A DNA stretch of 64,000 bases, from NCBI GenBank assembly GCA_950295325.1, contig OX485806.1, forward strand, positions 16,368,001 through 16,432,000. The letters run 5' to 3'. The number at the start of each line of letters is the position of its first letter. Position 1 is the first letter of the stretch. Positions 5,191 to 41,094 of this stretch are shown here, piece after piece. Source of the DNA: Polytrichum commune (Eukaryota > Streptophyta > Polytrichopsida > Polytrichales > Polytrichaceae). A program made the translations under genes and the position numbers. The notes under the pieces were generated by a model. The model did no database searches. It was not told where the DNA came from and was given only the letters and a program-made list of their open reading frames with translations.

Positions 5191-5679
5191 AAAACTCGGA
5201 GCGGGCAGGGTTTTTTTTTTGGGCACGGCCAGGCGGGCAGAGGCGTCGGCACCCTTTTGAGGGGCCCTTAGTGCCCAGGATCGGCTTCATAGGTAGCTCC
5301 GGAAGAAACAAAGAAGGAAGCAAGGAAGGAGCTTTGTTGACGCTGCTTTCTACGCATCCGGAGAATCCTCAACACCGAATCTCTCATATTCGGTCACTTG
5401 CTCGATTGAGAAATCGAGTACTGCATTTAGGCTTGAGGAATTTCAGCTGTCTTGTAAGCATTCCTACTTCTCCGAGGGTCACATTCCTTGGCAATAGGTC
5501 AGGATATATTTGATTCGATCCTTGGTTCGGTGTCGACTTGTGTTTCGAGTTCATGCTTAGCATGTTTCTGGATTTGGATTTGGATTTGGGTTTGTGTGTG
5601 ACTGTCAAGGATTACGAATATGACATGGATGTAGATTGTTTTGTGCAGGTTGTGTTTAGGGTACGGTAAAGTGCGAGCT
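5190..5679 (+). promoter_or_regulatory. Probable promoter and 5' UTR of biotin synthase, possibly with a 5' UTR intron
   Basis: This stretch is GC-richer than the surrounding DNA and lies directly upstream of the BIO2 start codon. A good donor (CTT|GTAAGC near 5453) and a good acceptor (TTTGTGCAG at about 5640-5648) would remove about 190 bases. That leaves a short second leader exon before the ATG at 5680. No clear TATA box was identified. This is inferred from splice-site appearance only. Confidence 0.4.
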
Positions 5680-8600
5680 ATGGCTTGGAGGCGGGCAACC
5701 ATCCGGTGCCTGTCCAATGTAGCCACCATATCCACAGAACCGACAACATCATCAATTTGTGGTCGCAATCTGGACAGAACTCCTGTGATGAGCTCTCAGT
5801 GTCGCAGTAAAATTGGGAATTCATCAAGATTCTCTTCGTCGTCTTCGTCTGCGGCCTACTCTCAGAATGTGGTCACGTCGTCGGAGACCTCTTCGGAGCT
5901 TTCGAAGAATGGCGTATTTGTGATGAATTCAGCGCCAGTTTCGTCGCGCCAGGATTCAGCAGCTGCCGTGGCGGGAGAGAGTGCTATTCAAAATGGGCCT
6001 AGGAACGACTGGACACGGGAGGATATTCAGGCCATCTACGATTCCCCGTTAATGGATCTCTTGCTCTATGGGGTAGGCTCTTGGATTGAATGTTGCTTGC
6101 ATATTTTTGGTTATCCACACCTTTTGCAATTTGTGTCTCGTAAAGGATGAGAAACATCTTCTCATTCCAAAGAAAGGGTTTCGGGTATAAGTTAGAGCTT
6201 GCTTTCGGTTTGATTGTCATTCACCAATTTCAGGTATGTTTTAGTTCAGATAATCTCCTCTGGGTTAGTTACCAAGATTTGGAATAGAACTGTCTGGAGC
6301 AAGGATTACTCTGTTTGTTGTATCCAAACTGACTACAAAGCTATTTGTACTTGGCTTGTGAAAACTGAAATGCGTACTAACACATTATAAAGGTAGATGG
6401 TCCTGAAACCAACATCCCACCCAAAACTCACACCTAAAAGCTTGCACAAATAAGTACATATTGCTTCTGATAATGTCCACCACGTTAACATCAGGCTCCA
6501 GTGTTGGTTTTGGGGGCATCTACAATAAAACTTCAAACCCTTAATAACTTTTGCATATGGGATTCGAATAAGACATGCTTTGGTGCTTTGGAATCTCCTG
6601 GCAATGCTAACGAGAATAGATTAAAAAAAAAATTCAAACTAATAACGGGATCTATGGTTAGCGCTTAAAGTGACAGTCTAGCACTATCTACCTCAGCGTT
6701 GTGTAATTCCAAATAGTACTCGTAACAGTGTAGTTGGACGGTTGTAAAATAGTGCCACTTTTAATTGAGAATTTCTACTGAGTACAAAAGTCTTGATCCT
6801 TGTGCAGGCGCAAGTCCACAAACATGCACATAAATGGAGAGAGGTCCAGCAGTGTACATTGCTCTCTATCAAGACAGGTGGTTGTTCAGAGGATTGCTCA
6901 TACTGCCCTCAGTCTTCACGCTACGATACAGGGGTTAAAGCTCACAAGCTTTTGGCGGAAGACGTAGTCCTTGATGCAGCTAGGAAGGTATGAGTTCTAT
7001 AATAATTTTCGAAGATTTATATTTATTAACCCTATGAATTCATGTGGCCTTATACAAGTATGGGTTCTAATGGATCTCACACAGCTTCACACAGATTTGA
7101 TGTTGAATGTTTACACCTTCATTGCAAACATTGCTTGTCTGCAATTCCTCAGGAAGGGTCTGCATGCGTGGCAGCTTTAGGAAGTTGAAATTGCATATAA
7201 CCAAGAGAGGACATACGTCCTAAAGTAGCCTTTTGACATTGGTTCATGAGTCTACTGTATGCAATGTCTGTCGGTGATTGCTCCTAATGATGCTGTTTCA
7301 GGGTTTAGGGTATGATCTAGCAGTACAATGCCTCAGCAAGAGGGCTGATAGTTAAGAATTTGTTGTTGAATGAACCTACCATTTGCTTCCATTTCCATAG
7401 ATTGATTTTTTGAGTTTGTTGTGTGCTTGTAATTACTTGGATTTTTAGGCAAAGGAGGCAGGAAGCTCAAGATTTTGTATGGGTGCGGCATGGAGGGACA
7501 CTGTGGGCAGGAAGACCAACTTCAATCAGATTCTAGATTATGTTAAGGAAATCAGGTACACTATTAAAGTTATCCTCTAAGTCAACATGACGTTTGGTTG
7601 GGAGTTGGTTGTTTTGCATACAACATCTTCCAAGTTTGGTAAAATTTCAGTGCATGCTCGGAGGTAGCTTTTGAATTTGAATGAAGAGCAAGTTATATTG
7701 GTTCATTGAGGGCCAAACTCGTTCTAGCTTGCTCTTCATTTAAATTCAAAAGCTACCTCCGAGCATGCACCACCACAAATGGAAAGTTTTTTTTTTTTTT
7801 AATATATATTCTATGCAAACCAACCAATGAAAAGTCATAGGAGACTAACTCCCAATAATTTGCCCCATTGCATTAAAGGATAACTCTACTATCAGACTAA
7901 AAATTTGCCTTTTCTGTTCTATGTATAAGTTGTTCAATGCAGAGTCTGTTTAGAAAATGATGAAGCAATTACCCTCATCATTGCTGTATTAATTGAATGA
8001 TTTTGTGCTACACAGGGGCATGGGAATGGAGGTCTGCTGCACGTTAGGTATGTTGGAGAAACAGCAAGCAGACCAACTTAAGACTGCAGGTCTTACTGCT
8101 TATAATCATAACTTGGACACGTCGAGGGAATATTACCCAAATGTGATAACGACACGCTCGTATGATGAGCGACTGAAAACTCTTGAATTTGTACGCGATG
8201 CAGGGATCAGTGTTTGCTCAGGTATGAAATTGAATACCCTTCTCCCGTTACATGCAATGTCCAGCCATCATGGAAACTTCAATTGATTGTCTCTGGGCAG
8301 TTTAGGTTTTTTCTTTCTCTGTAAAGCTATTTTAGGTGTGAAGATGGTTAGGGTGATTTATTATTACTGCCATGTGAACGTGAAAGTCATTCCTGAACTG
8401 TGCATTTTTGTTCAGGAGGTATCATTGGACTTGGTGAAGCTGATGAGGATCGTGTCGGGCTCCTACACACACTAGCCACTTTGCCTGAACATCCAGAGAG
8501 TGTGCCTATAAATGCACTTCTAGCAGTCAAGGGTACCCCTCTGGAAAATCAGAAGGTGATTTGTTAGTGAATTTGAGCCATTTTAAGCTAATTATGTCAA

Positions 8601-15436: not shown

Positions 15437-16440
15437 GTACTACCAAATCGCTTTGGTACGAGGCAAGCATGCATCTATCTATCTTCTTTGCCTCTCTAAA
15501 TTATATAATGAAATGAAATGAACCAAATTGCCTCAAACCGCTACACCGTTTATGGTATTTAGGGCCACTTCAACACACGAGACTAAAGGCCCATACCCCA
15601 TTGCATTCAAGATCGCTTCTTCGTCAACAAAAGGCCAGGACTCTCCAAGTTCACTTCACACTAGAAGGTGAAAGCTTACGGGTCCAAAGAAACTATCATG
15701 AATGTAAAATGTACGTGGACTCCTACATGGCAGATTATGGATAAGTCATATGGATCAGGAGTAAGTTGAAGTACTATCAAATCGCTTTGGTACAAGGCAA
15801 GCATGCATCTATCTATCTTCGTTGCCTTTCTAAAATATATAATGAAATGAAATGAACTGAAATGCCTCGAATTGCTACACTGTTTATGGTATTTAGGGCC
15901 ATTTCAACACACGAGACTAAAGGCTCACGCCCCATTGCATTCAAGATCGCTTATTCGTCAACAAAAGGCCGGGACTCTCCAAGTTCGCTTCACAATAGAA
16001 GGTGAAAGCTTACGGGTCCAAAGAAACTATCATGAATGTAAAATGTACGTGGACTCCTACATGGCAGATTATGGACAAGTCATATGGATCAGGGGTTAGT
16101 TGAAGTATTACCAAATCGCTTTGGTACGAGGCGAGCATACATCTATCTATCTTCCTTGCCTCTCTAAAATATATAATGAAATGAAATGAACCGAATTGCC
16201 TCGAACCGCTACACCGTTTATGGTATTTAGGGCCACTTCAACACACGAGACTAAAGGCCCACGCCCCATTGCATTCAAGATGGCTTATTCGTCAACAAAA
16301 GGCCGGGACTCTCCAAGTTCACTTCACACTAGAAGGTGAAAGTTTATGAGTCCAAAGAAACTATCATGAATGTAAAATGTACGTGGACTCCTACATGGCA
16401 GACTATGGATAAGTCATATGGATCAGGGCCGGGGTAAGTT
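15437..16440. repeat. Three tandem copies of a 334-bp unit
   Basis: Units start at 15437, 15771 and 16105, each opening with GTACTACCAAATCGCTTTGG or a close variant, so the period is 334 in both steps. Each unit holds CACCGTTTATGGTATTTAG (the terminus of MITE family A) fused to GGGCCACTTCAACACACGAG (terminus of family B), then a block ending in a GTCATATGGATCAGG motif. The copies are very similar, implying recent amplification. Short open frames inside are not convincing genes. Confidence 0.95.
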
Positions 16441-20515: not shown

Positions 20516-20603
20516 ATCAGTGTCAACTCATTACCAGGTTTGGCAATATATCAGACGTCTTTTTGGAGTATATTACCAAACCTGGCAATGAGTTGACACT
20601 GAT
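20516..20603 (-). ncRNA. Candidate small-RNA hairpin
   Basis: 35-nt arms at 20516-20550 and 20569-20603 are complementary with two deviations. Both deviations become G:U pairs if the minus strand is transcribed, giving 33 Watson-Crick plus 2 wobble pairs and an 18-nt loop. A third, direct partial copy of one arm lies at 20486-20515. It is on the same strand as, and about 1.3 kb downstream of, the MIR171 hairpin. It could be a young MIRNA, a siRNA hairpin or a MITE; no known mature miRNA is recognised in it. Confidence 0.4.
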
Positions 20604-21790: not shown

Positions 21791-21894
21791 TCAGGACCAG
21801 TCCAGACTGAGCCTGAGTTGAAAGCAAAGTGGAGAATGTTATCAGTCAAGGAAATACAATGAAAGGAGGAGAGGGAAGGAAAGGAGCGCAGTAA

Positions 21895-21990
21895 ATGAAG
21901 GATGTGATATTGGCGCGGCTCAATCTGATGGCCACGCCACGTTCTGGCATGGTCATCTGATTGAGCGCCACCAATATCGCATGCCCCACC
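21895..21990 (-). ncRNA. MIR171: MIR171 precursor hairpin
   Basis: The minus strand folds into a stem-loop whose 3' arm (21903-21923) contains TTGAGCCGCGCCAATATC followed by ACA. As I recall it, this matches the conserved miR171 core. The 5' arm (about 21956-21978) reads GATATTGGTGGCGCTCAATCA, as expected for miR171*. The duplex has WC pairs at TTGAGC and CCAATATC, with two mismatches and a G:U in between. The stem then extends through GATGACCATGCCA opposite TGGCGTGGCCATC to a five-base loop. miR171 in land plants directs cleavage of HAM/SCL6 GRAS transcription-factor mRNAs that control meristems and branching. Mature miRNA on the 3' arm and star on the 5' arm fit the family. The transcript should run from above 22 kb toward lower coordinates. 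Confidence 0.9.
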
Positions 21991-24661: not shown

Positions 24662-24863
24662 TTATTGTAGTGCGTAACTCCAAATAGTAACACGCACTAG
24701 TCGGGATACTTGGTGTAATTGTAAACCGCCCATGTAGTTGTCACCCACACTAAATGGAAACGTTATTGTAGTGCGTAACTCCAAATAGTAACACGCACTG
24801 ATTGGGATACATGGTGTAATTGTAAACCGCCCATGTAGTTGTCACCAACACTAAATGGAAACC
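24662..24863. repeat. 101-bp tandem duplication of a MITE-like segment
   Basis: The text starting TTATTGTAGTGCGTAACTCC at 24662 repeats from 24763 with few changes, including 'CCAAATAGTAACACGCACT', 'GTAATTGTAAACCGCCC' and 'TGTAGTTGTCACC'. Each half resembles the end of families A and C. Confidence 0.9.
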
Positions 24864-24899
24864 TAACATTAGTGTCATTCCTTGTAAAAGATTTTTGGG

Positions 24900-25180
24900 C
24901 ATTATAGATTTATAATGTTGCGATTACTGTCGCTTGCTAAGTGATTTTTCATCCAAATTTCCAATCATTCATGATAACATCTCCTTACGCAAATGTGAGG
25001 ATGCAGATTATACAAAACTTTGTATCAATGATTGGCATTTAGTTGAACAAAGGCTACGTTGGGATGACATTACTTGTGAACTTATTCATGAGAAGTGTCA
25101 TTCAAGAAGTTACCACAGTGACATAAATATTAGATTATATCACGACAATAAATACAATGCTTAGTGTAGCTCTTGCGATT
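24900..25180. repeat. Dispersed repeat (copy also at 33840-33990)
   Basis: 'ACTTGTGAACTTATTCATGA' then 'GAAGTGTCATT...AAGTTACCACA.TGACATAAA' occurs here and near 33876-33950. The short open frame inside is within the repeat and is not taken as a gene. Confidence 0.6.
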
Positions 25181-30523: not shown

Positions 30524-31022
30524 AAGGGCCACTTCACACACGAGCCAAGAGCCGTGACCATGAAATTGCGAGAGCCTGAAAGAAAATGTCCAAAGGTTGT
30601 CCCAAGACACTTCCAAAATTGTGTAGTGTGGTCACCAACCCTCAAGTGTAGTGTGAAGTCATATGTGACCGGACCCTCAACCAAATGCTATTTCAATGAA
30701 TTTCTATGCATGCGGGTCCTCACACATGATAAAATACAATAAATCAGCGGTTGTGAGTGTTCAGAGTGCCACGGTCTCCCAATCTACCACCAAGAGATGG
30801 TTTTTGAAAATAGTCCAAGTGAGCATGAAACATGATCCATTCGATGCCGCGTAGGAATCCATGTCGACTTCACATCCAACTTGCATTCACATACTCCGTT
30901 GGTCCCTCAAGCGTAGTGTGAAGCAAGGAACTTAGACCGACCGGCTCGACCTTTTCCACCAATGAGAGTGCTTGAAGTGTAATGGTCACGGGCTCTCAGT
31001 CTCGTGTGTGAAGTGGCCCTAA
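30524..31022. mobile_element. TIR element family B, copy 1
   Basis: It starts AGGGCCACTTCACACACGAG and ends with the mirror CTCGTGTGTGAAGTGGCCCT. About 495 bp, no coding capacity. The interior repeatedly carries 'CCCTCAAG.GTAGTGTGAAG'. A second copy of similar length lies at 31926-32413. Confidence 0.85.
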
Positions 31023-31449
31023 GTGACACTATTACACACGTGACACCAAAGACCATGAATGATGTAGTTGTAGTAGTAGTGGTGGTCCCTCAAGGGTAGT
31101 GTGAAGTAACGAACTTGGACCGACCGGCTCCGCCTTTTCCACCAATGAGAGTGCTTGAAGTGTAATGGTCATGGGCTCTCAGTCTCGCGTGTGAAGTGGC
31201 CCTAAGTGACACTATTACGCACGTGACACCAAAGACCATGAACGATGTAGTTGTAGTAGTGGTGGTGGTCCCTCAAGCGTAGTGTGAAGTAACGAACTTG
31301 GACCGACCGGCTCCGCCTTTTCCACCAATGAGAGTGCTTGAAGTGTAATGGTCACGGGCTCTCAGTCTCGTGTGTGAAGTGGCCCTAAGTGACACTATTA
31401 CGCACGTGACACCAAAGACCATGAACGATGTAGGTGTAGTAGTAGTGGT
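30901..31449. repeat. 183-bp tandem array, three units
   Basis: GGTCCCTCAAG starts units at 30901, 31084 and 31267, exactly 183 bp apart. Each unit is the right end of family B (through CTCGTGTGTGAAGTGGCCCT) plus a family-A-like tail (AAGTGACACTATTAC... ACGATGTAG) and a GTAGTAGT run. The array therefore grew from the 3' flank of the element at 30524. Confidence 0.95.
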
Positions 31450-40498: not shown

Positions 40499-41094
40499 TT
40501 CAGACCTTGGACAACTGCCAAAACAACTATAGTTAACTAGAAATTTTTTAAGGCTAAACTCAAGAACAACTATAGTTAACTAGAAAATATGTTGGAGGAA
40601 GTTTGCCTCTTGATTTGCTTCAGTTGAGGTCTTTAATATGCTCGGGCTATTGAGGATCATCAAGAAACGCCTTTATACGATCACTCATAGTGTTGTGCTC
40701 CAAAACAACCTTCATGTACACCATCAACACAAATAACACACTAGTGACACTTCAACATTATAGTAGAAGTATGTGAACATGTTGCGCTCAACTTTAGTTA
40801 ACTAGATATAGCTATAGTTAACAACCTTCATAGTGTTGTGCTCCAAAACAACCTTCATGTACACCATCAACACAAATAACACACTAGTGACACTTCAACA
40901 TTATAGTAGAAGTATGTGAACATGTTGCGCTCAACTTTAGTTAACTAGATATAGCTATAGTTAACTAGATTTATCGGCAAAACAACTATAGTTAACTACA
41001 TTTTTTGGCAAGTCAAATCGCGAACAACTATAGTTACGAAAGGCAACTAGTTAGCTAATAGTTGAATTAGTTGGTTAGTTGTCCAAGGTCTGAA
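40499..41094. mobile_element. TIR element family H with AACTATAGTT subterminal repeats
   Basis: It starts TTCAGACCTTGGACAACT and ends with the exact mirror AGTTGTCCAAGGTCTGAA. Length 596 bp. AACTATAGTTAACTA-type motifs occur many times near both ends, as subterminal transposase-binding repeats do in several DNA transposon superfamilies. A 142-bp internal segment (40687-40828) is directly duplicated at 40829-40966. No transposase. Confidence 0.85.

Follow-up and report, generated by a model that had tools for sequence, protein, structure and literature searches.

A conserved MIR171 hairpin and a complementary, probably HAM-type GRAS gene in Polytrichum commune

Introduction

Does a strong stem-loop in an apparently gene-poor stretch of the Polytrichum commune genome represent a gene for the plant microRNA miR171, and if so, which strand would be the sense strand and which mRNA its target? 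The stretch, hereafter the window, comprises 64,000 nucleotides (contig OX485806.1, positions 16,368,001 to 16,432,000), and an initial annotation had proposed that it harbors a conserved MIR171 gene on the minus strand. In the duplex that a microRNA forms with its star strand, mismatches are expected to be few and the overhangs to measure 2 nt. The vast majority of miR171 mature sequences are stated to contain the blocks GAGCCG and CAAUAU (PMC10340099).

Results

The precursor hairpin, as delimited by Rfam family RF00643 (MIR171_1) and by folding, occupies 21894..21988 on the minus strand. It scored 60 bits against MIR171_1, above the gathering cut-off of 48 that marks family membership. The initial annotation had suggested folding the minus strand as a check, and this gave a strong hairpin: 126 nt reached -66.2 kcal/mol (z -7.38), and none of 200 shuffled sequences was equally stable. 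Among 2556 tiles of 102 nt, placed every 50 nt on both strands of the window, the MIR171 locus was the most stable. The 18-nt core TTGAGCCGCGCCAATATC lies at 21906-21923 (minus) on the 3' arm. Allowing up to three mismatches, the core has two matches in the window against 0.01 expected, namely the core itself and the star arm as read on the plus strand. The position of the core and the fold bear out the proposed stem-loop with the miR171 core on the 3' arm and a star-like 5' arm at 21959-21979 (minus). The hairpin resembles Rfam MIR171_1 and Physcomitrella miR171 in its layout and in the 3'-arm location of the mature sequence, and differs from the MIR171_1 consensus in the loop and some star letters. 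Of possible promoter elements, only TATAAG motifs were found, at about -624, -659, and -879 relative to the hairpin.

Judging from the letters, two 21-nt registers are plausible. The predicted mature miR171 TTGAGCCGCGCCAATATCACA (21903..21923, minus, 3' arm) is identical to Physcomitrella 4-72, which was cloned and detected by blotting in protonema (PMC1838911, Table 1), and includes both the GAGCCG and the CAAUAU block. The alternative register AGATTGAGCCGCGCCAATATC (21906..21926, minus) is identical to Physcomitrella miR171-1*, a computational prediction (PMC1838911, Table 2). The star strand predicted from the fold for the 21903-21923 register, CGATATTGGTGGCGCTCAATC, is located on the 5' arm at 21959..21979 (minus) and leaves 2-nt 3' overhangs. 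In this 21-nt duplex, three positions of the 19-nt core are unpaired and one pair is G:U, so that the predicted miR171/star pair shows the few mismatches and 2-nt overhangs typical of a microRNA. The assignment to MIR171 is supported both by the Rfam score and by the identity of the 21-mer to a cloned Physcomitrella miR171.

We searched the genome (407.8 Mb in 64 contigs, seven of them 42-78 Mb long) for the 18-nt core and found it exactly at three places, with one mismatch at none, and with two mismatches at eight. The exact places are the window hairpin, a second MIR171 hairpin at C1:59395145 on the plus strand (49.7 bits against MIR171_1), and, as the reverse complement, a site within the GRAS gene L028. 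Five of the eight places with two mismatches lie in a repeat, while the other three (L007, L010, and L011) coincide with none of the 70 GRAS matches. The Rfam search of the genome scored 46 of 115236 candidates, and the number of MIR171 loci is therefore at least two. When control genomes were searched with MIR171_1 at an E-value limit of 10, 3 of 14 gave a match and none exceeded the cut-off. The same genome also contains the first 19 nt of miR1212, a microRNA listed for Physcomitrella and Polytrichum juniperinum (PMC1838911), exactly at C1:7202550 and with one or two mismatches at two further places (reversed pattern: none); all three miR1212-like places (L063, L064, and L065, on C1) fold into a hairpin. 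The miR1212 matches, the letters of miR171, and the seven large contigs, a number in keeping with n=7 as in Polytrichum, fit a moss genome very well.

The initial annotation had also called for a complementary site in GRAS genes of the same genome, and L028 provides one. This gene matches the GRAS domain (PF03514) with 388.5 bits, its ORF is on the plus strand with the GRAS domain at C1:13676944-13678059, and the complement of the core is found at C1:13677006 (minus). The site GATATTGGCGCGGCTCAATCA lies in frame and codes for ILARLN. Its letters are identical to those of the site reported, together with the ILARLN motif, for the three Arabidopsis genes HAM1-3 as well as 37 orthologues in 13 plants (PMC3727082). 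L028 thus shares a feature of the HAM subfamily, a miR171 site coding for ILARLN. We scored complementarity on both strands of 30 loci derived from the 70 GRAS matches, several of which are exons of one gene. L028 received a penalty of 2.0 for the 21903-21923 register and 1.0 for the 21906-21926 register; the next-best locus, L032, received 6.0 and 8.0, respectively. A GRAS tree of 13 rows, all from this genome and with no outside HAM protein, gave no firm placement of L028 or L032 and a long L028 branch. At L032:1566-1583 we observed a degraded miR171 site (penalty 6.0) with the aligned codons ILVRLN; this gene has perhaps ceased to be a target, or it represents a lineage of its own.

In Physcomitrium, PpGRAS12 was placed in the HAM subfamily and validated as a miR171 target, and two validated GRAS targets are described there (PMC8648639), compared with one good predicted target among the 30 loci scored here. 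For Physcomitrella miR171-1, a non-GRAS target had been predicted in 2007, before GRAS targets were validated (PMC1838911).

The plus strand raised a point that is absent from the initial annotation. The antisense hairpin at 21896..21990 (plus) also folds stably (-59.8 kcal/mol, z -6.72) and scores 50.8 bits against MIR171_1, above the cut-off and higher than the C1 copy in sense orientation (49.7 bits). Which strand is sense is therefore decided not by Rfam alone but by the exact core together with the complementary GRAS target, and the minus strand held up. Since the antisense strand of the C1 copy falls below the cut-off and no good antisense site was found among the 30 scored GRAS loci, the plus-strand hairpin is most likely the mirror of a near-perfect stem.

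If both strands were functional instead, an antisense transcript would give rise to a second microRNA, TTGAGCGCCACCAATATCGCA, with targets of its own. In addition to the stability and Rfam score of the plus-strand hairpin, this reading could draw on Physcomitrella, where some cloned small RNAs resemble reverse complements of miR160 and miR477 (PMC1838911), and on a repeat family near-complementary to the antisense arm, which accounts for 175 places with up to two mismatches versus 3 for the reversed pattern. However, a near-perfect stem yields a good hairpin on both strands in any case, the antisense strand of the C1 copy reaches just 37.2 bits and differs in the antisense arm, and the best antisense penalty among the 30 scored GRAS loci was 6.5. 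The antisense arm TTGAGCGCCACCAATATC matches exactly only at its own locus, and the four places with one mismatch, for which the 21-nt penalties are 4-5, all belong to a single repeat that looks non-coding. We therefore regard two functional strands as very improbable. It is highly improbable that the locus produces a minus-strand miR171 along with a plus-strand miR171-like RNA aimed at transcripts of the abundant repeat with its near-complementary site.

This repeat (L006, L008, L009, L012-L015, L018-L021, and L060) is about 420 nt long and carries TTGAGCCCCACCAATGTC or close variants, near the antisense miR171 arm in sequence. With up to three mismatches, the core occurs at 221 places in the genome versus 54 for the reversed pattern, and the letters TTGAGCCCCACCAATGTC are present in 65 of 89 three-mismatch places among the matches listed. 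A rice retrotransposon, MIKKI, is described as a decoy of miR171 (PMC5599236). We considered such a role for the repeat and rejected it, as the penalties of the 12 copies examined ranged from 6 to 9 against miR171, which makes the match too weak. A coding function was likewise discarded: sense ORFs across the site reach at most 134 aa, and the copies have the stretch of about 420 nt in common, some with short inverted ends. The repeat looks MITE-like. According to a rough hand estimate, made with no computed control, a single high-copy repeat with such a core-like match is unsurprising and may be due to chance.

Comparison of the two MIR171 copies revealed nine differences, five on the 5' side, two in the loop, and two in the upper 3' stem, whereas the last 35 positions, which contain the mature sequence, are free of differences; under even scatter, the chance of 35 such positions is about 0.01 by hand estimate. 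None of the nine differences is compensatory. The one pair altered on both sides changes from C:G to U/U and loses its pairing; two changes keep pairing (A:U to G:U and G:C to G:U), A:U to U/U loses a pair, one C-to-U change adds a pair to the fold of the C1 copy, and the rest are unpaired. The compensatory G:U pairs that the initial annotation had noted in the upper stem were overstated, as this part of the window hairpin contains a single G:U pair along with an A/C mismatch. Moreover, the remark is unsupported because a single sequence cannot reveal compensation.

The existence of two copies would permit the view that the window hairpin is a relic that persists without expression and that the C1 copy does the work. 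Yet the window copy is the better one both in Rfam (60 versus 49.7 bits) and in the 102-nt fold (-57.7 versus -46.6 kcal/mol), and its mature arm is intact although the flanks of the two copies no longer align. We therefore consider a relic very improbable and retain the reading of the window hairpin as a MIR171 gene. Apart from the hairpin, the window and the 10 kb around the C1 copy have repeat-like stretches in common; the nearest stretch, at window positions 24817-24983, shows no collinearity.

The description of the surroundings as gene-poor is supported for part of the long ORFs, while short exons would escape an ORF check. No ORF longer than 117 aa is present between 14 and 26 kb in the window. 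Of the 18 ORFs of at least 110 aa, counted from stop to stop, 10 were scanned against Pfam, and none matched above the cut-off. The ORF at 5635-6147 has no Pfam match; its end is reminiscent of the N-terminal region of biotin synthase. With ARAGORN, the window yielded no tRNA, and a scan for bacterial promoters and terminators, whose models are not applicable to plants, found nothing. Tandem arrays are located at 15437-16428 (334 nt, three units), 30900-31449 (183 nt, three units), and 40685-40965 (143 nt, two units, 100% alike). At 20516-20603, an inverted repeat with 35-nt arms that are 94% complementary forms the most stable fold after the two strands of the MIR171 hairpin. It matches MIR4387 weakly on both strands, below the cut-off, and is probably MITE-like.

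The proximity of this inverted repeat and the abundance of repeat-like stretches in the window could suggest that the MIR171 hairpin is itself the inverted repeat of a transposon or MITE with a chance likeness to MIR171, but its low copy number (a 2.6-kb query around it recurs elsewhere only as the C1 MIR171 hairpin, 88 nt at 90%, in a search that skips very common words) and a GRAS gene with the matching site make this very unlikely, to the point of being negligible, and the core, with up to three mismatches, is expected just 0.01 times per window.

Discussion

The locus is almost certainly a conserved MIR171 gene whose minus-strand transcript would yield miR171 as a 21-nt product of the 3' arm and direct cleavage of the mRNA of the probably HAM-type GRAS gene L028. 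Seen directly in this genome are the hairpin with its family match, another MIR171 copy, and a GRAS gene that bears the complementary site. By analogy with other land plants, the gene would be transcribed from the minus strand and the hairpin diced to release 21-nt miR171 from its 3' arm, which would guide cleavage of the L028 mRNA within the ILARLN codons. Such cleavage would limit HAM activity and, as in other land plants, may have a role in development. In Physcomitrium, a miR171-resistant reporter was visible in archegonia and egg cells and a sensitive one was not (PMC8648639). The arrangement is like that of the land-plant miR171-HAM module (SCL6/PpGRAS12): here too, a GRAS gene contains GATATTGGCGCGGCTCAATCA coding for ILARLN.

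We did not find the window locus in print in a literature search that was not aimed at one named species. It is a further copy of a very old plant microRNA, ordinary but worth annotating, and introduces no new principle. With two hairpins and a matching target, the miR171-HAM pair is now documented in this genome, which is useful for annotation and for tracing the ancient module.
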